In this document: positions 27,219 through 38,125 of the stretch, in pieces
Numbering within the stretch: position 1 is the first letter of the stretch
How the letters are laid out: every line of letters begins with the position of its first letter
Source of the DNA: an uncultured Clostridia bacterium
GTDB taxonomy: Bacteria; Bacillota; Clostridia; Oscillospirales; Acutalibacteraceae
Direction of reading: 5' to 3'
Assembly (NCBI GenBank): GCA_944376655.1
Contig: CALWDJ010000004.1
Location: forward strand, 22,367 to 86,366
Length of the DNA stretch: 64,000 bases
Position numbers and translations under genes: made by a program
Notes under the pieces: model-generated
What the model was told of the DNA's origin: nothing
Databases searched by the model: none
What the model saw: the letters and a program-made list of their open reading frames with translations, nothing else

Positions 27219-28241
27219 ATGGCGACAGATATAGGAATAGATTTAGGTTCATCAAAAACGGTTATATTCTCAAGCTCAAAGGTTGTTCTCGAACTGCCTA
27301 ATGTCGTCACGGTTGACAGTGAGACATGGGAGCCGGTGTATTTCGGCGAAAAGGCGAAGCAGACCATAGGCAGAACGCCGGACAGTCTTGTATGTGTTTT
27401 TCCGATTGAGCGCGGGATTATATCTGATTACGACATAGCCGAAATAATGCTTAAAAACTATATGCAGCAGGCATTCGGCAGCAGGATTATGCGTCCGCGC
27501 ATAATGGCAACGCTTCCGGCGGGACTTACCGAGCTTCAGCATCACTCGCTTTCAAACGTTGTAGAGTCGGCAGGAGGAAGGAACATATCGGTAATAGAGG
27601 GGCCGCTCGCGGTCGCATTCGGACTCGGACTTGATTTCTCAAAGCCGAGAGGCTCGCTTATTGTTGATATCGGAGCGGGTACGACCGATATCGCCGTTAT
27701 ATCCCTCGGCGGAATAGCGGTCTGCGAGTCGTTTAAAACCGCTTCTTCCGACCTTGATACACAGATAATAAGATATGTCCGTAAGGAGTATAACATAGAA
27801 ATAGGACCTCTTACCGCTGAAATGATAAAAATAAAGGTTGGCTCCGCGGTAAAAAGAGATATTGAAATCGCTATTGTCGCAAAGGGAAGAAATGTGTTTT
27901 CCGGACTGCCGGAGAGCTTTGAAATATCCTCGGGCGAGGTTTTTGATGCTATTAACGAAACGGTGGAAACCATCTGCAACGCGGTAAGGCAGGTGCTGAA
28001 CCGCACCGACCCCGACCTTGTTGCCGACATAACCGAGGACGGTATGTATCTTACTGGCGGCGGCTCGCAGTTAAGCGGAATGGAAGCGAGACTTCAGAAA
28101 TACCTCGGGATAGAGGTTCATGCGCTTGACGACCCGTCGCACAGCGTTGTAAAGGGCGCGGCGGTGGCGCTGAAAAATCCGCAGCTGCTTAAGAACGTCG
28201 ATTATCAGCTCCGCTCAATCAAGGAGCTTGCCGTTGAATAA
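27219..28241 (+). CDS. mreB: Rod shape-determining protein, MreB/Mbl family
   Basis: This 340-residue actin-like ATPase has phosphate 1 DIGIDLGSSKTVIF, phosphate 2 GSLIVDIGAGTTDIAVISLGG, the adenosine motif LTGGGSQLSG and an MATLPAGLTE connect region. It forms membrane-bound filaments that guide cell-wall synthesis. No mreC/mreD follows, so it is a stand-alone Mbl/MreBH-type paralogue rather than the mreBCD copy. CGGAAGGAACG precedes the ATG. The aromatic operon promoter follows 26 bases after the stop. Confidence 0.93.
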   Translation: MATDIGIDLGSSKTVIFSSSKVVLELPNVVTVDSETWEPVYFGEKAKQTIGRTPDSLVCVFPIERGIISDYDIAEIMLKNYMQQAFGSRIMRPRIMATLPAGLTELQHHSLSNVVESAGGRNISVIEGPLAVAFGLGLDFSKPRGSLIVDIGAGTTDIAVISLGGIAVCESFKTASSDLDTQIIRYVRKEYNIEIGPLTAEMIKIKVGSAVKRDIEIAIVAKGRNVFSGLPESFEISSGEVFDAINETVETICNAVRQVLNRTDPDLVADITEDGMYLTGGGSQLSGMEARLQKYLGIEVHALDDPSHSVVKGAAVALKNPQLLKNVDYQLRSIKELAVE

Positions 28242-28266: not shown

Positions 28267-28295
28267 TTGACAAAATAAAGATAATGTTATAAAAT
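28267..28295 (+). promoter_or_regulatory. Strong promoter of the aromatic amino acid operon
   Basis: A perfect -35 TTGACA (28267-28272) and -10 TAAAAT (28290-28295) are spaced 17 bases apart. The predicted start near 28302 gives a leader of about 190 bases before the first structural gene, containing the short leader ORF and the attenuator. Confidence 0.8.
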
Positions 28296-28326
28296 GATAA
28301 GAGACTTTAAGGAAAGGGTGGGCAAT

Positions 28327-28392
28327 ATGTCCGTATACGCTATGTATCGATTTTATTACTTTAATACGGACTGCCTGTATACCAGAGCTTAA
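28327..28392 (+). CDS. Leader peptide rich in Tyr and Phe codons (putative attenuator ORF)
   Basis: A 21-codon ORF begins with ATG at 28327 and ends with TAA at 28390-28392. It is preceded by a GGAAAGGGTGGG ribosome binding region. Seven of 21 codons are aromatic: Tyr at codons 4, 7, 10, 11 and 18, Phe at 9 and 12, including the run RFYYF. It lies between a strong promoter and a terminator, upstream of genes for Phe and Tyr synthesis. By analogy with the pheA and trp leaders of enterobacteria, a ribosome stalling at these codons would report on charged tRNA-Tyr/Phe. Translation itself is unproven. Confidence 0.75.
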   Translation: MSVYAMYRFYYFNTDCLYTRA

Positions 28393-28428
28393 GGTTTTCT
28401 TTCAGCTTTAAGATGTACGGACAGCCCG
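28329..28428 (+). promoter_or_regulatory. Attenuator alternative RNA structures (1:2 and 2:3)
   Basis: Segment 1 GTCCGTAT (28329-28336) pairs perfectly with segment 2 ATACGGAC (28364-28371) and encloses the Tyr/Phe run. Alternatively 28367-28381 pairs with 28414-28428 (13 of 15 columns paired, two of them G-U), enclosing a small hairpin 28388-28394/28406-28412. That second fold uses part of the 5' arm of the terminator at 28423-28432 and so excludes it. This matches antitermination logic: a stall near codon 7 would mask segment 1 and free segment 2. A third fold, 28318-28323 plus 28328-28335 with 28416-28429, would hide the leader ribosome site. Confidence 0.6.
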
Positions 28429-28474
28429 CAATCGCTCATGCAATTAAGCAGGAACGTATTGCGGGCTTATTTTA
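28423..28474 (+). terminator. Attenuator terminator ahead of the aromatic operon
   Basis: AGCCCGCAAT (28423-28432) and ATTGCGGGCT (28458-28467) form a perfect 10-base stem with a 25-base loop, followed by TATTTTA. It sits 19 bases before the first structural gene and downstream of the operon promoter, so it can only act conditionally. Confidence 0.8.
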
Positions 28475-28492
28475 TGGAAATGGGTGATTTGA

Positions 28493-29677
28493 ATGATCAA
28501 CGGAAGAATGACCGAACTCGGAAAAAAGCGCTCGGTCATAAGGGAAATTTTCGAGTATGCCAAGACAAGAAAGGCAGAAATAGGCGACAGCAAAGTATTT
28601 GATTTCAGCATAGGAAACCCGAGCGTTCCGGCTCCCGCCGCCGTTACCGAGGCAATGAAAAGGCTTATAAACGAGACTGACCCGGTGCAGCTTCACGGGT
28701 ACACCTCCGCTCAGGGCGACGCCGGAGTAAGAAAGGCGATTGCCGATAACGTAAAGTCGCGCTTTGATTTTGACGCCGACCCGAATCTTATTTATATGAC
28801 CTGCGGCGCCGCGGCCTCGCTTACGGTAACGCTTAACGCAATCGTAAACAGCGGAGATGAAATAGTGGTGCTGGCGCCTTATTTCCCGGAATACCGTGTT
28901 TTCGCCGAAAAAGCGGGCGCGGCGGTTGTCGAGTCTCCATGCAGAGAGGGCGATTTTCAGATTGACTTTGAGGCGCTTAAAAAGGCGGTTACCTCAAAAA
29001 CAAAGGCGGTTATAGTAAACTCACCGAACAATCCCACCGGCGCTGTTTTTTCGGAGGATACAATCAGAGAGCTTGCGCTGCTGCTTGAAAACCGTCAGCG
29101 TGAGTACGGAACCGATATATACATAATAGCGGACGAGCCGTACAGGGAGCTTGTTTACGGTGCCGATGTTCCTTATATTCCAAAGTTTTATAAAAACACC
29201 GTTGTCTGCTATTCGTACAGCAAGTCGTTCTCACTGCCCGGCGAGCGTATAGGCTATATACTTGTTTCGCCTGAATGTAAGGACTGCGGCGAGCTTTACG
29301 CCGCGGTCTGCGGAGCGGGCAGGGCTCTCGGCTTTGTCTGCGCGCCGAGCCTTCTTCAGTATACTGTAAGAGACTGTGTAGATGTAAAGCCCGACCTTGA
29401 AACCTATAAGACGAACCGTGATATATTTTACGGCGCGCTTACTTCATACGGATATACCGTAGTACCGCCGGACGGCGCGTTTTACCTTTTTGTAAAATCA
29501 CCCGAGCCGGACGCCTACGCTTTCTGCGAGCGCGCAAAGAAATATGAGCTTCTGCTCGTTCCGGGCGATGATTTCGGATGTAAGGGCTATGTGCGCATAT
29601 GCTACTGCGTATCGCGCGAGCAGATAGAAAACTCTCTTCCGGCGTTCAAGGCGCTTATCGAAGAATATAATAAATAA
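28493..29677 (+). CDS. PLP-dependent class I/II aminotransferase, probably aromatic
   Basis: This 394-residue fold-type I aminotransferase has the PLP-anchoring Lys in YSYSKSFSLPGERIGY (about residue 240), SPNNPTGAVFS, and DEPYRELVYGADVPY. It resembles aspartate/aromatic aminotransferases of Clostridia. Being first in an operon that makes prephenate, phenylpyruvate and hydroxyphenylpyruvate, it most likely does the last transamination to Phe and Tyr. Sequence alone cannot exclude aspartate as the main substrate. The ATG at 28493 follows GGGTGATT at short spacing. Confidence 0.87.
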   Translation: MINGRMTELGKKRSVIREIFEYAKTRKAEIGDSKVFDFSIGNPSVPAPAAVTEAMKRLINETDPVQLHGYTSAQGDAGVRKAIADNVKSRFDFDADPNLIYMTCGAAASLTVTLNAIVNSGDEIVVLAPYFPEYRVFAEKAGAAVVESPCREGDFQIDFEALKKAVTSKTKAVIVNSPNNPTGAVFSEDTIRELALLLENRQREYGTDIYIIADEPYRELVYGADVPYIPKFYKNTVVCYSYSKSFSLPGERIGYILVSPECKDCGELYAAVCGAGRALGFVCAPSLLQYTVRDCVDVKPDLETYKTNRDIFYGALTSYGYTVVPPDGAFYLFVKSPEPDAYAFCERAKKYELLLVPGDDFGCKGYVRICYCVSREQIENSLPAFKALIEEYNK

Positions 29678-29689
29678 CCGGTGGTAAAT

Positions 29690-30793
29690 ATGACTGAACT
29701 GGAAAAGGCAAGAAATGAGATAAACAGGATCGACAGCCGCATGGCGGAGCTTTTTGAAGAGCGTATGGCGGCTGTAAAGACCGTCGCGGAGTACAAAAGG
29801 AAAAACGGAATAAGGGTCACCGACCAGGCGCGTGAGGCTGAGGTCATAGCGCGCAATTCGGCACTTGTGAAAAGCGAGACCGTAAGGCCTTATTATGTCA
29901 GCTTTCTTCAGAATAATATGGAGCTGTCGAAGGCGTATCAGCACCGTCTGCTTGAGGGTATGCGGGTAGCTTACAGCGGCGTGGAGGGCGCGTTTGCCAA
30001 TATCGCCGCCAGCCGTATTTTTCCTGACGCTAAAGCGGTCTCCCATTCCGATTTCAAAACAGCGTACGATTCGGTCGTCAACGGCGAATGTGACTGCGCC
30101 GTTCTTCCGATTGAAAACAGCCATAACGGCGACGTGGCTCAGGTAATGGATCTTACCTTTTTCGGAACGCTCTATATAAACGGAATTTACGATATTGAGG
30201 TAGTTCAGAACCTTCTCGCCGTAAAAGGTACGACTATGGACGAGGTAAAGCGTGTAATAAGTCACCCGCAGGCGCTCGGCCAGTGCGCGAAATATATAAG
30301 AGAGCACGGCTTTGAGCCGGTCGAGGCGGTCAATACCGCCGTTGCGGCAAAGCAGGTAGCGGAGTTCGGCAGACACGATACCGCGGCGATAGGAAGCGAC
30401 GAGGCGGCGGCAAAGTTCGGCCTTAAAAAGCTCGAGGCACATATAAACGAAAGCGGAAACAATACGACGCGCTTCGCCGTTTTCTCGAAAACGCCGAAGA
30501 CCTCCGCCGAAAAGGACAATCAGTTTATAATGCTCTTTACCGTATCAAATGAGGCGGGCGCGCTCGGCAAGGCGATAAACACGATAGGAAAGCACGGCTT
30601 TAACCTGCGCGCGCTTAAATCCCGCCCCACAAAGGAGCTTATCTGGAGCTATTATTTCTACGCTGAGGGCGAGGGCAATATAAACAGCGAAAAAGGCAGA
30701 GAAATGATAGAGGAGCTCAAGGAAAACTGCAGCACCCTGCGGATTGCCGGCAGCTTTGAAAAGGAAATTATACTTAGGGGGAGCGAAAAGTGA
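29690..30793 (+). CDS. pheA: Bifunctional chorismate mutase / prephenate dehydratase
   Basis: The ATG at 29690 is preferred over the GTG nine bases upstream, though its ribosome binding site is weak. The 367-residue protein has an AroQ chorismate mutase domain (1-90, ELEKARNEINRIDSRMAELF), a prephenate dehydratase domain (about 91-272) starting VAYSGVEGAFANIAASRIF and ending near NNTTRFAVF with the catalytic Thr-Arg-Phe, and a C-terminal ACT domain with GALGKAINTIGKHG and LKSRPTKE (Phe-binding ESRP-like motif). It turns chorismate into phenylpyruvate and is probably feedback-inhibited by Phe. It overlaps aroB by 4 bases. Confidence 0.95.
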   Translation: MTELEKARNEINRIDSRMAELFEERMAAVKTVAEYKRKNGIRVTDQAREAEVIARNSALVKSETVRPYYVSFLQNNMELSKAYQHRLLEGMRVAYSGVEGAFANIAASRIFPDAKAVSHSDFKTAYDSVVNGECDCAVLPIENSHNGDVAQVMDLTFFGTLYINGIYDIEVVQNLLAVKGTTMDEVKRVISHPQALGQCAKYIREHGFEPVEAVNTAVAAKQVAEFGRHDTAAIGSDEAAAKFGLKKLEAHINESGNNTTRFAVFSKTPKTSAEKDNQFIMLFTVSNEAGALGKAINTIGKHGFNLRALKSRPTKELIWSYYFYAEGEGNINSEKGREMIEELKENCSTLRIAGSFEKEIILRGSEK

Positions 30794-31800
30794 TTTTACC
30801 CGTAAAAACCTCGTCGGGCGGATATAATATTTATCTTGAACGGGGCGCTCTTTTAAAAGCAGGGGAATATTTCAACCTTGACCGCAGAGTGCTTGTCGTG
30901 ACCGACAGCGGAGTGCCCAGCCAATATTCAGAAACAGTCGCAAAGCAGTGCAAAACCCCTTTTATCGTGACCGTGCCTGAGGGAGAGACCTCGAAATGCT
31001 TTGATGAGTATAAAACACTTTTGTCCGCGCTTGTGGATAACGGCTTTACCCGCAGCGACTGCGTTGTGGCGGTAGGCGGCGGCGTTGTCGGCGATATGGC
31101 GGGCTTCGCCGCGGCAAGCTATATGCGCGGAATTTGCTTTTACAATATCCCAACGACTGTGCTTTCGCAGGTCGATTCATCGGTCGGGGGCAAGGTGGCG
31201 ATTGATTTTGGCGGGTACAAGAATATTGTTGGCGCGTTTTATCCGCCGTCCGGCGTAATTATTGACCCCGATACGCTTAAAACGCTTCCCGCGAGACAGA
31301 TTTCAAACGGGCTTGCTGAGGCGCTTAAAATGGCGCTGACCTCTGACCCGGAGCTTTTTGAGATATTTGAAAAAGGAAATGCGGTAAAGGAAATAGATAC
31401 CGTAATAGAGCGTTCGCTTAAAATAAAGCGCTCTGTTGTTGAGCAGGACGAAAAAGAGGGCGGTCTCCGCAAAATACTTAATTTCGGTCATACTCTGGCT
31501 CACGCGATTGAGAGCCAGAACGGTATGCAGAACCTTTACCACGGCGAGTGCGTGGCGCTCGGTATGCTGCCGATGTGTTCGGAAAAAGTGCGGAAAAGAC
31601 TGGCGCCTGTTCTTGAAAGCCTTAACCTTCCTGTCAGCACCGATATTGACGCGAAGGCGGTTATCGACGCGGTGCGGCATGACAAGAAAATGTCCGGCGA
31701 TAAGATAACCGTTATTTATGTTCCGGAAATAGGCAGCTATGAAATGAAAAAAATGCCGTTCGGCGAATTTGCGGACGGAATCAAGGAGACATTCGCATGA
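30790..31800 (+). CDS. aroB: 3-dehydroquinate synthase
   Basis: This 336-residue protein has the NAD-binding GGGVVGDMAGFAAASYMRG and the substrate and metal region IPTTVLSQVDSSVGGKVAIDF, with later His residues (NFGHTLAHAIE and YHGECVALGML) that bind zinc. It converts DAHP to 3-dehydroquinate, step two of the shikimate pathway. It is slightly shorter than the 360-residue E. coli enzyme, mainly at the N-terminus. The ATG-like GTG at 30790 overlaps pheA by 4 bases, and the stop overlaps aroC by 4 bases. Confidence 0.95.
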   Translation: MILPVKTSSGGYNIYLERGALLKAGEYFNLDRRVLVVTDSGVPSQYSETVAKQCKTPFIVTVPEGETSKCFDEYKTLLSALVDNGFTRSDCVVAVGGGVVGDMAGFAAASYMRGICFYNIPTTVLSQVDSSVGGKVAIDFGGYKNIVGAFYPPSGVIIDPDTLKTLPARQISNGLAEALKMALTSDPELFEIFEKGNAVKEIDTVIERSLKIKRSVVEQDEKEGGLRKILNFGHTLAHAIESQNGMQNLYHGECVALGMLPMCSEKVRKRLAPVLESLNLPVSTDIDAKAVIDAVRHDKKMSGDKITVIYVPEIGSYEMKKMPFGEFADGIKETFA

Positions 31801-32888
31801 AAAATACGTTCGGCAGCTCAGTGTCGTTAACTCTGTTCGGGGAAAGTCACGGCGCCGCGATAGGAGCGGTTATCGACGGAATCGCTCCCGGAATAAAAAT
31901 AGATGAGGATTTTATCCGCAGTCAGCTTTCCTTGCGCCGCCCGGTAGGGTTGATTTCCACTCCGAGGGTCGAGCCTGACGAGTTTGTTATCGAAAGCGGA
32001 GTTTTTGAGGGGAAAACCACCGGAACGCCGATATGTATTTTGATTCCGAACGTCAATACAAAATCAGAGGATTACAGCGAGATAAGAAGCAAGGCGCGCC
32101 CGGGACACGCCGATTATACGGCGTATGAAAAGTACCACGGGTTTGAGGATTACCGCGGAGGCGGTCATTTCAGCGGCAGGTTAACAGCCGCTGTCGTGGC
32201 GGCGGGCGCGGTAGCGCTTTCGGCGCTTAAAGGAAAAGGCATAAATATAGGCACTCATATCGCAAGGCTCGCCGGAATTGCCGACAGAGGCTTTAAAGAT
32301 TACGAAAGTGATATTAAAAAACTTTCGGAAATGCAGTTTGCTGTATTTGATACGGCGGCGGCCGAAAAAATGAAAGAGGAAATTATTGCCGCTAAAAATG
32401 TCGGGGACAGTGTGGGCGGAGTGCTTGAGACCGCTGTTACGGGACTTCCCGCCGGAGTGGGCGAGCCGTGGTTTGACAGTGTGGAAAGCCTTTTGTCGCA
32501 CGCGCTCTTTTCTGTTCCCGCCGTAAAAGGCGTGGAATTCGGCGGCGGCTTTTCGCTCTGCAATATGCGCGGAAGTCAGGCAAACGACCCGTTAAGAACC
32601 GAAAACGGTAAAATATTTACCCTTACAAACAACAACGGCGGTATAAACGGCGGCATCACCAACGGTATGCCGGTTGTTTTCCGCTGCGCGGTAAAGCCTA
32701 CTTCCACAATACACATCAGTCAGCAGACGGTTGATTTTATAAATATGGAAAATGTCGATTTTCTCGCCGGCGGACGGCACGACCCCTGTATTGTTCACCG
32801 TGCGAGGATAGTGGTTGACAGTATTACGGCGCTTACCTTATGCGATATTTTAAGCGCGAGATTCGGAACGGATTGGTTGGCGGAATAA
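31797..32888 (+). CDS. aroC: Chorismate synthase
   Basis: This 363-residue protein begins with the family signature FGESHGAAIGAVIDGIAPG and has the other conserved blocks RRPVGLISTPRVEPDE, RPGHADYTAYEKY and HFSGRLTAA, and near the C-terminus GRHDPCIVHRARIVVDS. It uses reduced FMN to convert EPSP to chorismate, the last shikimate step. ATGA overlap with aroB couples translation. Its stop TAA shares one base with the start of the aroE-aroK fusion (TAATG). Confidence 0.95.
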   Translation: MKNTFGSSVSLTLFGESHGAAIGAVIDGIAPGIKIDEDFIRSQLSLRRPVGLISTPRVEPDEFVIESGVFEGKTTGTPICILIPNVNTKSEDYSEIRSKARPGHADYTAYEKYHGFEDYRGGGHFSGRLTAAVVAAGAVALSALKGKGINIGTHIARLAGIADRGFKDYESDIKKLSEMQFAVFDTAAAEKMKEEIIAAKNVGDSVGGVLETAVTGLPAGVGEPWFDSVESLLSHALFSVPAVKGVEFGGGFSLCNMRGSQANDPLRTENGKIFTLTNNNGGINGGITNGMPVVFRCAVKPTSTIHISQQTVDFINMENVDFLAGGRHDPCIVHRARIVVDSITALTLCDILSARFGTDWLAE

Positions 32889-34141
32889 TGGAATACGGTT
32901 GCATTGGGGAAAAGCTGTCGCACAGCTTTTCAAAAATAATTCATTCGCAGCTTGCCGATTATGATTATGAGCTTTGTGAAATACCGAAAGACGGGCTTGA
33001 TTCATTTATGCGAAAAGCCGATTTTAAGGCGATAAATGTGACAATACCTTATAAGCAGGCGGTAATACCGTATCTTCACGTTATAAGCGATACGGCGCAT
33101 AAAATAGGCGCGGTAAACACGATTGTCAATAACGGCGGTAAGCTGTACGGCTATAACACCGATTTTTCGGGTATGCGCTCCCTTATAAAAAAGCAGGGGG
33201 CGGAGCTTGAAGGCAAAAAGGTGCTGGTTTTAGGCAGCGGAGGCACCTCAAAAACGGCGGCTGCGGTTGCTGAAAGTCTCGGTGCGGCAGAGGTTTACAG
33301 GGTATCGAGAAGCGGACGGGACGGCGCGGTTACTTACGGAATCGCTCTTTCCGAGCATATTGACGCACAGGCAATAATAAATACCACGCCCTGCGGAATG
33401 TATCCGAATATAGGAGCTTCGGCGGTTGATATATCCCTTTTCAAAAATCTTTACTCCGTGACCGACGCGGTTTATAACCCGCTTTGCTCGGAGCTTGTCA
33501 TATCAGCAAGGCAAAAGGGGATAAATGCACGGGGCGGACTTTATATGCTGGTGGCGCAGGCGGCTTTTGCGGTCGAGAAGTTCACCGGCGAGACAGTTTC
33601 GGAGGATAAAATTCAGTCGGTCTATGAGAAAATACTCCGTGATAAAAAGAATATCGTACTGATAGGCATGCCGGGCTGCGGGAAAACAACAATAGGTAAA
33701 AAGGCGGCTGAAAGACTCGGTAAGAAATTCGTTGATACTGACGATGTGATAGTCAAGACTGCCGGAATGTCAATTCCCGATATTTTTTCAAGGTACGGCG
33801 AGGAAAAATTCAGGGATATTGAATCCGAAGTTATCAAAAAGGTTTCCGGAATGCAGTCCGCAGTGATAGCCACAGGCGGCGGAGCGATTTTGAGAGAAAA
33901 TAATGTTTCGCTTTTGAAGGAAAACGGATTCGTGGTCTTTATCGACCGACCGGTTGAAAAGCTGGTTACAACAGATGACCGTCCGCTTTCGTCGAACCGT
34001 GAGCTGCTTTTAAAGCGGTACACTGAAAGATACGGAATATACTGCGGCGCGGCTCAGGCAAAAATTGAAGCGGCTGATGACCTTCTGAAGAATATAAACA
34101 CGGTAACAGAGGTTTTTCTTAATGAAAATTTTAGTGATTAA
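32888..34141 (+). CDS. aroEK: Shikimate dehydrogenase-shikimate kinase fusion
   Basis: The ATG at 32888 overlaps the aroC stop by one base. The 417-residue protein fuses two pathway enzymes. Residues 1-about 250 are AroE: GEKLSHSFSK, NVTIPYKQAV (Lys56 catalytic), NTIVN, VLGSGGTSKTAA (NADP loop) and NTTPCGMYP. Residues 254-417 are AroK: Walker A GMPGCGKTT (260-268), DTDDVI, GGGAIL and LTSDDRP-like DDRPL. It would reduce dehydroshikimate and phosphorylate shikimate in one polypeptide. I see no stop or frameshift at the junction. It overlaps aroQ by 20 bases. Confidence 0.92.
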   Translation: MEYGCIGEKLSHSFSKIIHSQLADYDYELCEIPKDGLDSFMRKADFKAINVTIPYKQAVIPYLHVISDTAHKIGAVNTIVNNGGKLYGYNTDFSGMRSLIKKQGAELEGKKVLVLGSGGTSKTAAAVAESLGAAEVYRVSRSGRDGAVTYGIALSEHIDAQAIINTTPCGMYPNIGASAVDISLFKNLYSVTDAVYNPLCSELVISARQKGINARGGLYMLVAQAAFAVEKFTGETVSEDKIQSVYEKILRDKKNIVLIGMPGCGKTTIGKKAAERLGKKFVDTDDVIVKTAGMSIPDIFSRYGEEKFRDIESEVIKKVSGMQSAVIATGGGAILRENNVSLLKENGFVVFIDRPVEKLVTTDDRPLSSNRELLLKRYTERYGIYCGAAQAKIEAADDLLKNINTVTEVFLNENFSD

Positions 34142-34577
34142 CGGACCGAATATAAATATGCTCGGTATAAGAGAGCCGGGAATTTACGGAAAAGACAGCT
34201 ACGAGACGCTTTGCGCCAATATAAGACAATACGCGGACAAAAACGGTGCCGTTGTAAAGCTGTACCAGTCGAACCACGAGGGCTGTCTTGTTGATGAAAT
34301 ACAGGCGGCATACGGGGTGTTTGACGGAATAGTCATAAATCCCGGCGCCTATACTCATACGAGCGTCGCCCTGCTTGACGCTGTAAAGGCTGTTTCGATT
34401 CCAACGGTCGAGGTGCATATATCCGATATTTCCTCGCGCGAGGAATTCAGGCAGATAAGCTATATCCGCGCCGCCTGCGTCAAAACAATAAGCGGACACG
34501 GCATAGACGGCTATACCGAGGCGATACAATTCCTTATAGATAATTACGGTAAAAAAAATGATAGTCACGGTCGGTAA
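34122..34577 (+). CDS. aroQ: 3-dehydroquinate dehydratase, type II
   Basis: This 151-residue protein has the type II dehydroquinase signature ILVINGPNINMLGIREPGIYG at the N-terminus (catalytic Tyr in the GIYG part), QSNHEGCLVDEIQ, INPGAYTHTSVAL and VEVHISDIS. Type II enzymes form dodecamers and make 3-dehydroshikimate. The gene begins 20 bases before the aroE-aroK stop and its own end overlaps aroA by 20 bases. Confidence 0.95.
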   Translation: MKILVINGPNINMLGIREPGIYGKDSYETLCANIRQYADKNGAVVKLYQSNHEGCLVDEIQAAYGVFDGIVINPGAYTHTSVALLDAVKAVSIPTVEVHISDISSREEFRQISYIRAACVKTISGHGIDGYTEAIQFLIDNYGKKNDSHGR

Positions 34578-35769
34578 GAGCGCGGCGGCGGGCTCTGTAA
34601 AGGCGCCGCCCTCAAAAAGTATGGCGCACAGGTATCTTATCTGCGGCGCCCTGTCGTCGGGCAGTGAAATCAAAGGTGTTGATTTTTCCGAGGATATTAA
34701 GGCTACCCTCGGCTGCCTTGAATCGCTCGGAGCCCGTGTGAAAATTGAAGACAATTCTGTTTTTATCGGCGGCGTCGCGACAGCAGGGAAAACGGTTAAA
34801 GAAAATCTATTCTGCGGAGAAAGCGGCAGCACACTGCGCTTTATGATTCCGCTTTGCCTGCTTGAGGATAAAAAATTCACCCTTTCGGGCACGGAGAGGC
34901 TCTTCAGCCGCTCTCTTTCGGTGTATGACGATATCTGCCGCTCGCAGGGTATAGAGTTCAAGCAGGATAAAAAAAGCGTCACGCTCAAAGGAAGGCTTGC
35001 CTGCGGCGGTTACGCTGTGCGGGGAGATATATCGAGCCAGTTCATAAGCGGACTGATGTTTGCTCTGCCGCTGCTTGCCGGCGACAGTACTGTTGATATT
35101 ACCGGCGCGCTTGAGAGCGCCTCTTATCTAGGTATGACGGTAAAGGCGCTTGCTGATTTCGGTGTGCGTGTAAAAAGGGCGGACGAGCATACCTTTTACA
35201 TAAAAGGCTCACAAAGCTATAAGCCGAGAGAGCTTGCGGTTGAGGGTGATTATTCAAACGCCGCGTTTTTCTCCGCGCTTAATTTGACCGGCGGCAACGT
35301 TTCGGTAAGGGGACTCAGCAAAAAAACTTCGCAGGGAGATGCGGTTTATCCGGAGCTTTTTGAAAAAATTGCAAAAGGTACGCCGGATATTGATATATCT
35401 GACTGTCCGGATTTAGGTCCGGTGCTTATGGCGGCTGCCGCTGTTAAAAACGGTGCGCACTTTACCGGAACGCACCGCCTTAAAATTAAGGAAAGCGACC
35501 GCGGTGCGGCAATGGCTGAGGAGCTTTTAAAGTTCGGCTGCCATACAGATGTCGGTGAGAACGAGATAACAGTTCATAAATGCGATTTGAAAACTCCGGA
35601 ACTTCCGCTCTACGGTCATAATGACCACAGAATTGTAATGTCGCTCGCCGTGCTCTGTACTCTTACGGGCGGCACCATATACGGCGCTGAAGCGGTTGCA
35701 AAAAGCCTGCCGGACTTTTTTGACCGTCTCAGCTTACTCGGCGTTGATATTAAGGTGGAAAATAAATGA
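34558..35769 (+). CDS. aroA: 3-phosphoshikimate 1-carboxyvinyltransferase (EPSP synthase)
   Basis: This 403-residue protein has the EPSP synthase features PPSKSMAHRYLICGAL (Lys and Arg contact shikimate 3-phosphate), CGESGSTLRFMIPL (signature 1), the SSQFISGLMFALPLL block, and the C-terminal KESDRGAAMAEELLKFG and YGHNDHRIVMSLAVL. It joins PEP to shikimate 3-phosphate. The first active-site loop has CGESGSTLRF rather than LGNAGTAMRP, so the enzyme is of the form often classed as class II. It overlaps tyrA by 4 bases. Confidence 0.95.
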   Translation: MIVTVGKSAAAGSVKAPPSKSMAHRYLICGALSSGSEIKGVDFSEDIKATLGCLESLGARVKIEDNSVFIGGVATAGKTVKENLFCGESGSTLRFMIPLCLLEDKKFTLSGTERLFSRSLSVYDDICRSQGIEFKQDKKSVTLKGRLACGGYAVRGDISSQFISGLMFALPLLAGDSTVDITGALESASYLGMTVKALADFGVRVKRADEHTFYIKGSQSYKPRELAVEGDYSNAAFFSALNLTGGNVSVRGLSKKTSQGDAVYPELFEKIAKGTPDIDISDCPDLGPVLMAAAAVKNGAHFTGTHRLKIKESDRGAAMAEELLKFGCHTDVGENEITVHKCDLKTPELPLYGHNDHRIVMSLAVLCTLTGGTIYGAEAVAKSLPDFFDRLSLLGVDIKVENK

Positions 35770-36626
35770 AATTAAGTAAGGATATGAATATTCTGATTGT
35801 CGGTCTGGGGCTTCTCGGCGGCAGCTATGCGGAAGGATTAAAAAAGCAGGGATTTAAAGTAAGTGCGATTACAAAGGAAGAGTCGTCTGTTGATTTTGCT
35901 CTGGAAAAAGGAATTATTGATTACGGCACTGTAAAAATTGAGCCTGAACTGATAGCAAACGCCGACCTTACGGTGTTCGCGCTTTATCCGCATATTTTTA
36001 TAGAATGGATAAAGGAAAATCAGCAGTATTTTAAAAGCGGGGCGGTAATAACCGATGTAACGGGAGTAAAAGGCTGTATCGTAGGAAAAATACAGAGCAT
36101 TTTAAGGGAAGACGTGGAATTTATCGCCGCTCACCCTATGGCGGGACGTGAAGTCTGCGGCGTTGAAAACAGTACCTCTGAAATATTTAAGGGCGCTAAC
36201 TATATAGTCGTTCCTACCGAGAAGAACACACCTGATGCAATCGAGCTTTGCAGGGATTTGGGTGAGAAGCTCGGTTTTTATCAGGTGGCAGAGCTTTCGG
36301 TTGAAATGCACGACCGTATGATAGGCTTTTTATCACAGCTGACTCATTGTATTGCCGTATCGCTTATGTGCTGCAACAGTACGCCTGATCTTGAAAAGTA
36401 TACCGGCGACTCATTCAGGGATTTAACAAGGATTGCACGCATAAACGATGAAATGTGGAGCGAGCTTTTTCTTGACAATAAAAATGTTTTGCTTGCCGAG
36501 ATGGAGCGCTTCAGAAGCTCTTTTGACGAGCTGTACGAAAAGATAAATACAGGTGACCGTGAAGGAATGCGGGAAATGATGCGGCTTTCCACAAGTCGCC
36601 GCAAGCTTTTTGATAAAATATTGTAA
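35766..36626 (+). CDS. tyrA: Prephenate dehydrogenase
   Basis: This 286-residue protein has an N-terminal NAD-binding loop (NILIVGLGLLGGSYAEGLKK; the GLGLLGG pattern), the catalytic-region ITDVTGVKG with IAAHPMAGREVCGVENS (conserved His), and a helical C-terminal dimer domain. It converts prephenate to 4-hydroxyphenylpyruvate for tyrosine. There is no ACT tail, so end-product control is not visible in this protein; the attenuator may supply it. A separate small gap of 12 bases leads to the DAHP synthase gene. Confidence 0.93.
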   Translation: MKLSKDMNILIVGLGLLGGSYAEGLKKQGFKVSAITKEESSVDFALEKGIIDYGTVKIEPELIANADLTVFALYPHIFIEWIKENQQYFKSGAVITDVTGVKGCIVGKIQSILREDVEFIAAHPMAGREVCGVENSTSEIFKGANYIVVPTEKNTPDAIELCRDLGEKLGFYQVAELSVEMHDRMIGFLSQLTHCIAVSLMCCNSTPDLEKYTGDSFRDLTRIARINDEMWSELFLDNKNVLLAEMERFRSSFDELYEKINTGDREGMREMMRLSTSRRKLFDKIL

Positions 36627-36638
36627 GGTGAAACAGTT

Positions 36639-37670
36639 ATGAATCTTAAATTTTCAAGAAAGCTGCCGATACCGCAGCAGATAAAAACCCGCTATCCTGT
36701 GACTGAGGAGCTGGCACGTGTTAAGGCGGAGAGAGACGAGGAGCTTAAAAAAATATTTTCAGGTGAATCGGAGAAATTCATTCTGATAATAGGTCCATGC
36801 TCAGCGGACAGCCGGGAACCGGTGCTTGACTATATTTCACGTCTGCGTAAAGTGCAGGATGAAGTAAAAGATAAAATAATTATAGTTCCTCGTATTTACA
36901 CAAACAAACCACGCACCACCGGTGACGGTTACAAAGGAATGCTTCATCAGCCGGATCCTGATGAGAAGCCTGATATGCTGCAAGGTATAGTGGCAATAAG
37001 AGACCTCCATATGGCGGCGCTCAGAGACTATGGCTTTACCTGCGCCGATGAGATGCTATATCCTGACAATCACCGATATCTTTCGGATTTGCTCGCTTAT
37101 GTCGCTGTCGGCGCTAGATCTGTTGAGAATCAGCAGCACAGGCTTACCGCAAGCGGTCTTGATATTCCGGTCGGAATGAAAAATCCCACAAGCGGCGACC
37201 TTTCGATAATGATGAATTCAATAACCGCGGCACAGCACCCGCATACATTTATATACCGCGGCTGGGAGGTTACAAGCGAGGGAAATCCGTATGCTCACGC
37301 GATACTTAGGGGATATATTGATTTTGCCGGAAAAAGCGTATCAAACTATCATTATGAAGACCTTTTGAAGCTGTATAATCTTTATGCCGAAAGCGGCCTT
37401 AAAAATCCGGCGGCGATAGTTGATACTAATCATGCCAATTCCGGAAAACAGTATCTTGAACAGATACGGATAGCTAAAGACGTTGTTTACAGCCGCAATC
37501 ATAATAACGATATCCGCTCGCTTGTCAAAGGACTGATGATTGAAAGCTATATCGAGGACGGAGCGCAGAAAATCGGTGAGCATATATACGGAAAGTCAAT
37601 AACAGACCCGTGTCTCGGCTGGGAAAAATCCAAAAAACTGATTTGTAAGATTGCGGATACACTTAAATAA
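36639..37670 (+). CDS. aroF: 3-deoxy-D-arabino-heptulosonate 7-phosphate (DAHP) synthase, type I-alpha
   Basis: This 343-residue protein has the type I DAHP synthase core: FILIIGPCSADSREPVLDYI, IIIVPRIYTNKPRTTGDGYKGMLHQPD, VGARSVENQQHR, PVGMKNPTSGDLSIMMNSI and VDTNHANSGKQ. The early KTRYPVTEELARVKAERDEELKKI helix resembles the AroFGH N-terminus that in E. coli carries feedback sites. It condenses PEP and erythrose 4-phosphate, the first pathway step, although the gene is near the end of the operon. Which amino acid inhibits it cannot be told here. Confidence 0.93.
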   Translation: MNLKFSRKLPIPQQIKTRYPVTEELARVKAERDEELKKIFSGESEKFILIIGPCSADSREPVLDYISRLRKVQDEVKDKIIIVPRIYTNKPRTTGDGYKGMLHQPDPDEKPDMLQGIVAIRDLHMAALRDYGFTCADEMLYPDNHRYLSDLLAYVAVGARSVENQQHRLTASGLDIPVGMKNPTSGDLSIMMNSITAAQHPHTFIYRGWEVTSEGNPYAHAILRGYIDFAGKSVSNYHYEDLLKLYNLYAESGLKNPAAIVDTNHANSGKQYLEQIRIAKDVVYSRNHNNDIRSLVKGLMIESYIEDGAQKIGEHIYGKSITDPCLGWEKSKKLICKIADTLK

Positions 37671-37714
37671 TAAAACACATAATTGAACCGGATTAACCGG
37701 CGGAGGAAAAAGAT

Positions 37715-38125
37715 ATGGAAGTATACAGGCATAAGGTGCATTATTACGAAACAGACAAAATGGGATTTGTTCACCATTCAAACTATATCAGATGGTTTGA
37801 GGAGGCGAGAACCGATTTTTTCGATAAAGTTGGCGCACCATACACTCTTACAGAATCGCTTGGTCTTATAAGTCCGGTACTTACCGTACAGTGCGAATAT
37901 AAAAAATCCTGCTATTTCGGTGAAATAGTGCTTATATATGTAACGCTTGAAAAGGTTGAAAATGTACGTTTTTATGTAAGCTACCGCGTTACTTCGGTGG
38001 ACGGTGAATTAAGAGCAACGGGTACCTCATCACACTGTTTTTTGAATGAAGAGGGTAAGGTTACATCGCTGAAAAAAGTGCAGCCGGAGCTTTATAAAAA
38101 GCTCGAGGACGCGCTGGGAAAATAA
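37715..38125 (+). CDS. Acyl-CoA thioesterase, 4HBT/YbgC-like
   Basis: The ATG at 37715 follows GGAGGAAAAAG and gives 136 residues. It has the hot-dog fold pattern YYETDKMGFVHHSNYIRWFEEARTDFF, with the catalytic Asp in YETDKMG and His in VHHSNY, typical of the YbgC/FcbC 4-hydroxybenzoyl-CoA thioesterase family. Substrate is unknown; it is last in the aromatic operon, so a link to that pathway is possible but not shown. It is followed by a shared terminator. Confidence 0.9.
   Translation: MEVYRHKVHYYETDKMGFVHHSNYIRWFEEARTDFFDKVGAPYTLTESLGLISPVLTVQCEYKKSCYFGEIVLIYVTLEKVENVRFYVSYRVTSVDGELRATGTSSHCFLNEEGKVTSLKKVQPELYKKLEDALGK

Follow-up and report, generated by a model that had tools for sequence, protein, structure and literature searches.

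How does an uncultured member of the Clostridia control a long run of genes for phenylalanine and tyrosine synthesis, and does the short open reading frame (ORF) in front of that run take part? The genes lie in a stretch of 64,000 nucleotides, here called the window, downstream of an mreB-like gene that ends at 28241. We favor, with a probability of about 0.92, the reading that the leader between them would act as a ribosome-mediated (leader-peptide) transcription attenuator sensing charged Phe- and Tyr-tRNA. Comparison with related genomes lends support to the ORF with its aromatic codons, the exclusive stems, the terminator and the target genes. The elements of an attenuator, that is an aromatic-rich ORF, a terminator before the first gene, an antiterminator that excludes it and a stem 1:2, were all found in the leader, where they are arranged as follows.

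28267 to 28295, forward strand: predicted sigma-70-type promoter-like site, with a -35 TTGACA at 28267-28272, a 17-nt spacer and a -10 TAAAAT at 28290-28295, read directly (11 of 12 consensus matches)
28310 to 28322, forward strand: putative ribosome-binding region of the leader ORF (AGGAAAGGGTGGG), which is the outer part of arm 1 and pairs with the segment 2 region
28327 to 28392, forward strand: leader ORF MSVYAMYRFYYFNTDCLYTRA, 21 codons, seven of them Phe/Tyr, from ATG at 28327 to a TAA ending at 28392; similar ORFs occur in relatives, with aromatic codons kept under substitution
28329 to 28336, forward strand: arm 1 of stem 1:2 (candidate anti-antiterminator), GTCCGTAT, from sequence and shuffles
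28348 to 28362, forward strand: putative control codons CGA TTT TAT TAC TTT (R F Y Y F), situated in the 1:2 loop
28364 to 28371, forward strand: arm 2 of stem 1:2, ATACGGAC, from sequence and shuffles
28367 to 28381, forward strand: predicted antiterminator 5' arm (segment 2), within the ORF, from covariation in 36 leaders and duplex tests
28414 to 28428, forward strand: predicted antiterminator 3' arm (segment 3), overlapping the terminator 5' arm, from covariation and duplex tests
28423 to 28467, forward strand: predicted intrinsic terminator hairpin, AGCCCGCAAT (28423-28432) with ATTGCGGGCT (28458-28467), -24.1 kcal/mol, with covariation
28468 to 28475, forward strand: U-rich tract 3' of the terminator stem (TATTTTAT)

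The 21-codon ORF with its seven Tyr/Phe codons, as originally predicted, is read directly in the sequence, and both predicted segment pairings are present. Segment 1 is fully complementary to arm 2, and segments 2 and 3 face each other over 14 positions around a 1x1 mismatch, one of the 14 being a non-pairing A-C in the window copy. The intrinsic terminator stands too, as a stable hairpin with a U-rich tract; its stem is followed by TATTTTATG, and the hairpin ends 25 nt 5' of the first gene. It was absent from the list returned by a terminator scan with a loop limit of 8 nt. Folding of the region 28302-28480 yields -54.2 kcal/mol (z = -3.65), a value as low as that being reached by 0 of 200 shuffles. 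As for the promoter, which had been called strong, a promoter-like site is there, but such sites were not above chance in a scan of the window (4 found versus 3.2 expected). The promoter and terminator scans did not rise above shuffles and were left out of the evidence.

The leader is followed by ten ORFs.

28493 to 29677, forward strand: aminotransferase (NCBIfam PRK06836), the first gene of the operon
29681 to 30793, forward strand: PheA-like chorismate mutase / prephenate dehydratase
30790 to 31800, forward strand: AroB, 3-dehydroquinate synthase
31797 to 32888, forward strand: AroC, chorismate synthase
32885 to 34141, forward strand: AroE-AroK fusion, shikimate dehydrogenase and shikimate kinase in one ORF
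34122 to 34577, forward strand: AroQ, type II dehydroquinate dehydratase
34558 to 35769, forward strand: AroA-like, EPSP synthase, slightly below the NCBIfam cut-off
35766 to 36626, forward strand: TyrA-like, prephenate dehydrogenase, below the NCBIfam cut-offs
36639 to 37670, forward strand: AroF/G/H-type DAHP synthase
37715 to 38125, forward strand: YbgC/FadM-type thioesterase, the final ORF of the run and perhaps a member of the operon

Ten genes for Phe/Tyr synthesis had been predicted here; the run (28493-38125) is indeed an aromatic operon, but one of nine aromatic ORFs plus a thioesterase. These nine cover the pathway that begins with DAHP synthase and ends in Phe and Tyr. In the genome of the window (2.0 Mb, 95.9% complete), searches for the anthranilate synthase N-terminal domain (PF04715) and the chorismate-binding domain (PF00425) returned no match; the same searches were positive in 14 of 14 control genomes. 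The organism is therefore probably a Trp auxotroph, and an absence of Trp synthesis would fit a leader that has Phe/Tyr codons and zero Trp codons.

To what extent is the leader shared by related gut bacteria? We sought orthologues of the first gene in 150 genomes of the family and inspected the 350 nt upstream of the best 25 loci, six of which, including the window's own, carry a similar leader. A wider search, of named genomes, contributed at least 80 loci, which together with the window copy and one same-genus copy made up a set of 82. Among the matches listed, 47 of these 82 loci have, within 400 nt upstream, both a terminator-like hairpin and a short ORF that contains an aromatic core, and the other 35 have no leader before the aminotransferase; one of the 35 (L034) has only 1 nt of upstream sequence and is uninformative. 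Some members of the series L031-L110 share their contig with other loci of the analysis (for example, L097 with L007), so the sets are not independent. On a tree of 80 of the 82 aminotransferases, the distribution of the leader requires 7 changes, compared with 25.7 when labels are shuffled, which indicates that the leader is inherited in clades and occasionally lost or gained. In four loci of a single clade (L040, L042, L043 and L045) the aminotransferase lies, by reading, directly 3' of an mreB-like frame with no leader, and this lineage seems to have lost it.

We then ran genome-wide a covariance model (R1) trained solely on aminotransferase-linked leaders. Matches came from 31 of 398 genomes in the family sample, 29 of 345 in that of the order, 5 of 341 in that of the class and 2 of 299 in that of the phylum, with one match in each matching genome; the four samples overlap, and the rates may be too low because weak matches are lost by the filters applied to sets of more than 40 genomes. 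The two matches of the phylum sample are the genome of the window and a member of its order. All 58 R1 loci that we inspected precede an aromatic gene (aminotransferase in 33, DAHP synthase in 14 and pheA in 11); a further match, G388, lies outside these 58. The matches fall into coded families f1, f15, f16, f17, f19 and f20 of the order and f34 and f40 of the class. Conservation in relatives was the support that the original prediction had called for, and the ORF, the stems and the Phe/Tyr genes do recur across eight coded families, but in a minority of genomes. Judging from these alignments and searches, the leader family is patchy but real.

The two folds were evaluated in an alignment (A3) of 36 of the 47 leaders, from which divergent or differently built ones had been left out beforehand (L062, L063, L067, L069, L072, L074, L083, L089, L091, L095 and L104). 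Conservation in A3 is concentrated in the stem arms and the aromatic codons. The antiterminator is paired in 82.3% of cells, against 25-40% for slid pairings, with a covariation score of 0.338 against 0.06-0.16 and changes on both sides in 10 of its 14 pairs. The corresponding values for the terminator are 88.3% against 37-49%, 0.353 against 0.08-0.17, and 8 of 10 pairs. For both stems, 0 of 500 column shuffles attained the observed paired cells, double-change cells or covariation score; 29 of the 500 had at least as many antiterminator pairs changed on both sides, and 263 had at least as many terminator pair types. Since antiterminator and terminator both need columns 110-115, they are mutually exclusive. 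The predicted pair of exclusive folds is thus borne out, with covarying pairs in both stems. The double changes of the antiterminator sit mostly in its outer half (32 of 36 cells, columns 101-107), and pair 35-112, which lies in the portion common to the terminator, is broken in 15 of 36 leaders, the window copy among them.

Duplex energies were also compared with those of shuffled sequences. Cognate 2:3 duplexes have a mean of -24.9 kcal/mol versus -14.2 for dinucleotide shuffles, are in the best 5% in 40 of 47 leaders, and overlap the terminator hairpin by 5 nt or more in all 47. The seven outside the best 5% are L032, L033, L063, L072, L089, L091 and L095, two of which (at 0.06 and 0.07) belong to the same clade as the window copy. 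When the segments 2 of other leaders were placed on a given segment 3, the mean was -18.1 kcal/mol, a weak control because close relatives share sequence; in L032, L033, L054 and L080 about half of the foreign segments 2 pair as well as the leader's own. The conclusion on 2:3 pairing rests on the shuffles rather than on this control. A test set of 25 leaders linked to DAHP synthase or pheA, and thus free of the training leaders, which are all aminotransferase-linked, gave -26.3 versus -13.3 kcal/mol for 2:3, and the antiterminator beat 95% of shuffles in 24 of the 25. For stem 1:2, 37 of the 47 leaders reach the best 5% when ranked against shuffles. One sub-lineage (L062, L072, L074 and L095) combines the same RFYY core with a tail resembling ...DRR(N/D)... 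and with terminators of another build (for example, GCCGAGGTCC); within it, L072 and L095 miss the best 5% for 2:3 and L062 is just at it.

The 85 distinct leader ORFs contain 588 Phe and Tyr codons out of 1,813 and a single Trp codon; the ORFs were partly picked for aromatic content, which favors this count and the following test of substitutions. In 20 independent ORF pairs, 20 of 30 single-base changes at aromatic codons stay Phe/Tyr, whereas 2/9 are expected to (P-value = 2 x 10-7, or 5 x 10-6 at a transition bias of 3). Conservation of the aromatic codons, which had been proposed as a check on the attenuator, is hence found. This narrower test was run after a test of the whole ORF in the 20 pairs had given no synonymous excess (24 of 137 in frame versus 25 of 146 and 31 of 144 out of frame). 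Outside the aromatic codons, the comparison suggests no amino-acid constraint on the peptide. That the aromatic codons are kept and the rest is unconstrained fits a starvation sensor, for which the codons matter and not the peptide, and argues against an arrest peptide.

In an arrest peptide, the nascent R-F-Y-Y... would bind a Phe/Tyr-like small molecule in the ribosome and stall it without starvation. An RFYY(F/Y)-like core does recur across many genera and Arg directly precedes the aromatic core in 46 of the 85 distinct ORFs. We nevertheless consider it very unlikely: Phe and Tyr interchange within the core, the remaining peptide appears free of constraint, and the length and C-terminus of the peptide vary. 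A product-induced stall 5' of segment 2 would, moreover, switch the operon on in times of plenty, which is the wrong sign. Even less likely is a riboswitch or a protein-bound RNA switch, in which a ligand or an RNA-binding protein would set the stems and the ORF would be incidental. The conserved alternative stems would suit it, and ORF-free RNA control of aromatic genes, by T-box and TRAP, is widespread in Firmicutes. Against it, the conservation in A3 centers on the arms together with the aromatic codons, those codons are kept, and an ORF is present in 58 of 58 loci found by the model, a count favored by the inclusion of the core sequence in R1.

The leader also has no T-box and belongs to no other Rfam family. 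Searches with Rfam 15 gave 0 matches in the window at the gathering score, five matches under permissive settings, all far below gathering scores, and no match at the leader in 12 relatives. A T-box (RF00230) or other known RNA at the operon was rejected on these grounds, T-boxes being found elsewhere in the genome, and the suggested look for an existing RNA family entry yielded no Rfam match. In 33 of the 35 leaderless loci, Rfam searches of up to 3 kb on each side found no T-box. We give hardly any credence to the last alternative, that the hairpin simply marks where transcription of the mreB-like gene finishes, the leader ORF being a chance product of A+T-rich DNA. The mreB-like gene does end just upstream, and T-rich DNA easily yields Phe/Tyr codons; yet the conservation and covariation over genera contradict this reading, as do the copies of this leader that precede DAHP synthase or pheA in other genomes and the selection for F/Y codons.

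If the leader is indeed a ribosome-mediated attenuator, where would the ribosome stand? Counted from the first base of the core, medians in 39 of 47 leaders place the start at -21, the stop at +48, the antiterminator 5' arm at +19 to +48 and its 3' arm at +56 to +83, so that the antiterminator begins a median of 19 nt after that base; the 1:2 loop measures 27 nt. For the 1:2 shuffles and the geometry, segment 1 was defined as pre-core and segment 2 as starting 12 nt past the core start. Because these definitions alone could not show an unpaired core, we refolded the leaders without restriction. The core was then paired at a mean of 0.33 (below 0.5 in 41 of 47 leaders) and the Shine-Dalgarno/start region at a mean of 0.70, and in all 47 the core was spanned by 8 or more expected pairs. 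In this folding model, a ribosome on the core would sit in the 1:2 loop, and stem 1:2 would hide the leader's own start site.

We infer the start site, the translation, the stalling and the direction of the response as follows. RNA polymerase would start near 28300, and a ribosome would load onto the leader ORF. With Phe- or Tyr-tRNA scarce, it would stall on the aromatic core (28348-28362), occupy the 1:2 loop and prevent the stem from closing; segment 2 (28367-28381), freed just ahead of the ribosome, would pair with 28414-28428 and take the terminator 5' arm, and the operon would be read. A ribosome that passes the core would cover segment 2, the terminator would form and transcription would stop. 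In the absence of any ribosome, stem 1:2 would form and hide both segment 2 and the ribosome-binding site of the leader, and transcription would stop as well.

We folded the leader with assumed ribosome footprints. In a short transcript, in which the terminator 3' arm is not yet made, the probability of the antiterminator is 0.20 without a ribosome and 0.73 with the P site on CGA, rising to 0.88 when a second ribosome is on the start codon. It is 0.00 both with the P site at the first Tyr, two codons past CGA, and with the ribosome at the stop codon. Once the hairpin is complete, the terminator prevails at equilibrium (0.92-0.99) in all six ribosome states tried, and equilibrium folding was accordingly rejected as proof of switching. 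As the complete terminator wins even with a stalled ribosome, the switch must act kinetically, during transcription, which is how attenuators are held to act.

The codon that precedes the core deserves separate attention. CGA-TTT heads 46 of 46 distinct RF[YF] cores (28348-28353 in the window), while the subsequent Tyr codons vary between TAT and TAC; the related leaders behind these counts are not independent. By comparison, among Arg codons CGA accounts for 43 of 758 (5.7%) in the aminotransferases encoded at 45 leader loci, for 5 of the 63 remaining ones in the leaders, and for 6 of 223 in 12 window genes. The maximum number of aromatic codons in six is 5.62 in the 37 leaders without CGA-TTT versus 4.38 in the 48 with it, a contrast that is partly built in because the extra aromatic codon often replaces Arg. 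CGA is decoded through inosine-A wobble. Our guess is that a slow CGA in the P site might be a sensitiser, tying the reading of the first Phe codon particularly closely to the supply of charged Phe-tRNA. A broader proposal, which we put forward tentatively and doubt somewhat more than we believe, is that these leaders may form a distinct 'loop-sensor' attenuator: their own ribosome-binding site would be arm 1, one early round of translation would decide, the rare CGA would set the sensitivity, and the whole would serve as a Phe/Tyr regulon device for operons headed by aminotransferase, pheA or DAHP synthase within one class. Such a geometry raises the question of how RNA folding would be steered by a ribosome that occupies the loop and not an arm. 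A further question is whether these Firmicutes couple translation to transcription tightly enough to permit attenuation. The invariant CGA codon and the loop geometry thus give testable questions.

T-boxes sense tRNA charging and control the same kinds of genes. Compared with T-box leaders (RF00230), the window leader would share the signal and the kinds of genes but be read by a ribosome on an ORF. The genome of the window has ten matches to RF00230, seven of them above the cut-off, including one before a pheS-like gene. On contig C2, two divergent T-boxes, L112:1501-1727 (reverse strand) and L112:2428-2648 (forward strand), are 0.7 kb apart; the first precedes the pheS-like gene, which was named from its sequence, and has an apparent UUC specifier, as read off the alignment. 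At another locus (L116), a T-box precedes an apparent ABC-type substrate-binding protein gene. With the pheS-linked T-box and the window leader, the genome would sense Phe-tRNA both ways: Phe/Tyr attenuation, in eight coded families of one class, would coexist with a T-box before a pheS-like gene in one genome.

An aromatic attenuator read by ribosomes had been called unusual in Clostridia, a statement that has to be softened given the precedents for leader peptides in the accessible parts of published accounts, with His in Eubacteriales (PMC9413887) and a Phe uORF in Acholeplasma (PMC8632094). Leader-peptide attenuation is best known from Proteobacteria, with T-boxes often used instead in Firmicutes, as PMC2965389 also states; His leader peptides are reported in bacilli, including the Bacillus cereus group (PMC2965389). 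His leader-peptide attenuators are predicted in Eubacteriales, including C. difficile, and in Erysipelotrichales (PMC9413887). As far as these partial texts go (PMC9413887, PMC2965389), the His attenuators are likewise predicted leader-peptide attenuation in Firmicutes, Clostridia included, but differ in amino acid, genes and lineages, and are set apart by their descriptions and not by sequence. Another likeness is uORFC-13-1, a motif of 24 copies located upstream of aroF in Acholeplasma, the one genus named, and in environmental DNA of no assigned source. It has at least one Phe codon and a terminator, and its authors propose starvation attenuation (PMC8632094). It resembles the window leader in the Phe-codon uORF, the terminator and the downstream aroF; the accessible part of the account mentions no Tyr run, and the comparison with the DAHP-synthase-linked leaders is by description only (PMC8632094). 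The Leu/phe leader of Lactococcus lactis (RF01743) is by name a Phe-related Firmicute leader and is in Rfam, but the accessible part of its source lists it for Lactococcus lactis only (PMC2864571), and the window has no match to RF01743. No aromatic leader of this group is named in the accessible part of PMC11109978. Among the matches listed by searches of the open literature, no Phe/Tyr leader for the group was found.

The original prediction had, finally, likened the locus to enterobacterial pheA/trp leaders. In the E. coli pheL/trpL mechanism, the successive stems are 1:2, the antiterminator 2:3 and the terminator 3:4. The attenuator elements of that likeness stand: as in pheL/pheA and trpL/trpE, an ORF with runs of control codons and stems 1:2, 2:3 and 3:4 lie before a biosynthetic operon. 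The arrangement, however, does not. The enterobacterial type was rejected, the control codons being outside arm 1 and segment 2 not beyond the stop. Arm 1 of pheL and trpL contains the control codons, with pairing probabilities of 0.87 and 0.94, respectively, and segment 2 lies past the stop codon, whereas the window-type core is mostly unpaired in the loop and segment 2 begins inside the ORF. The Shine-Dalgarno/start region is also more paired in the window type than in pheL (0.13) or trpL (0.52), and the window-type leader, unlike either, carries both Phe and Tyr codons. On the sequence evidence, the leader matches no Rfam 15 family and most likely belongs to a known mechanism class, ribosome-mediated attenuation, in a geometry other than the enterobacterial one.
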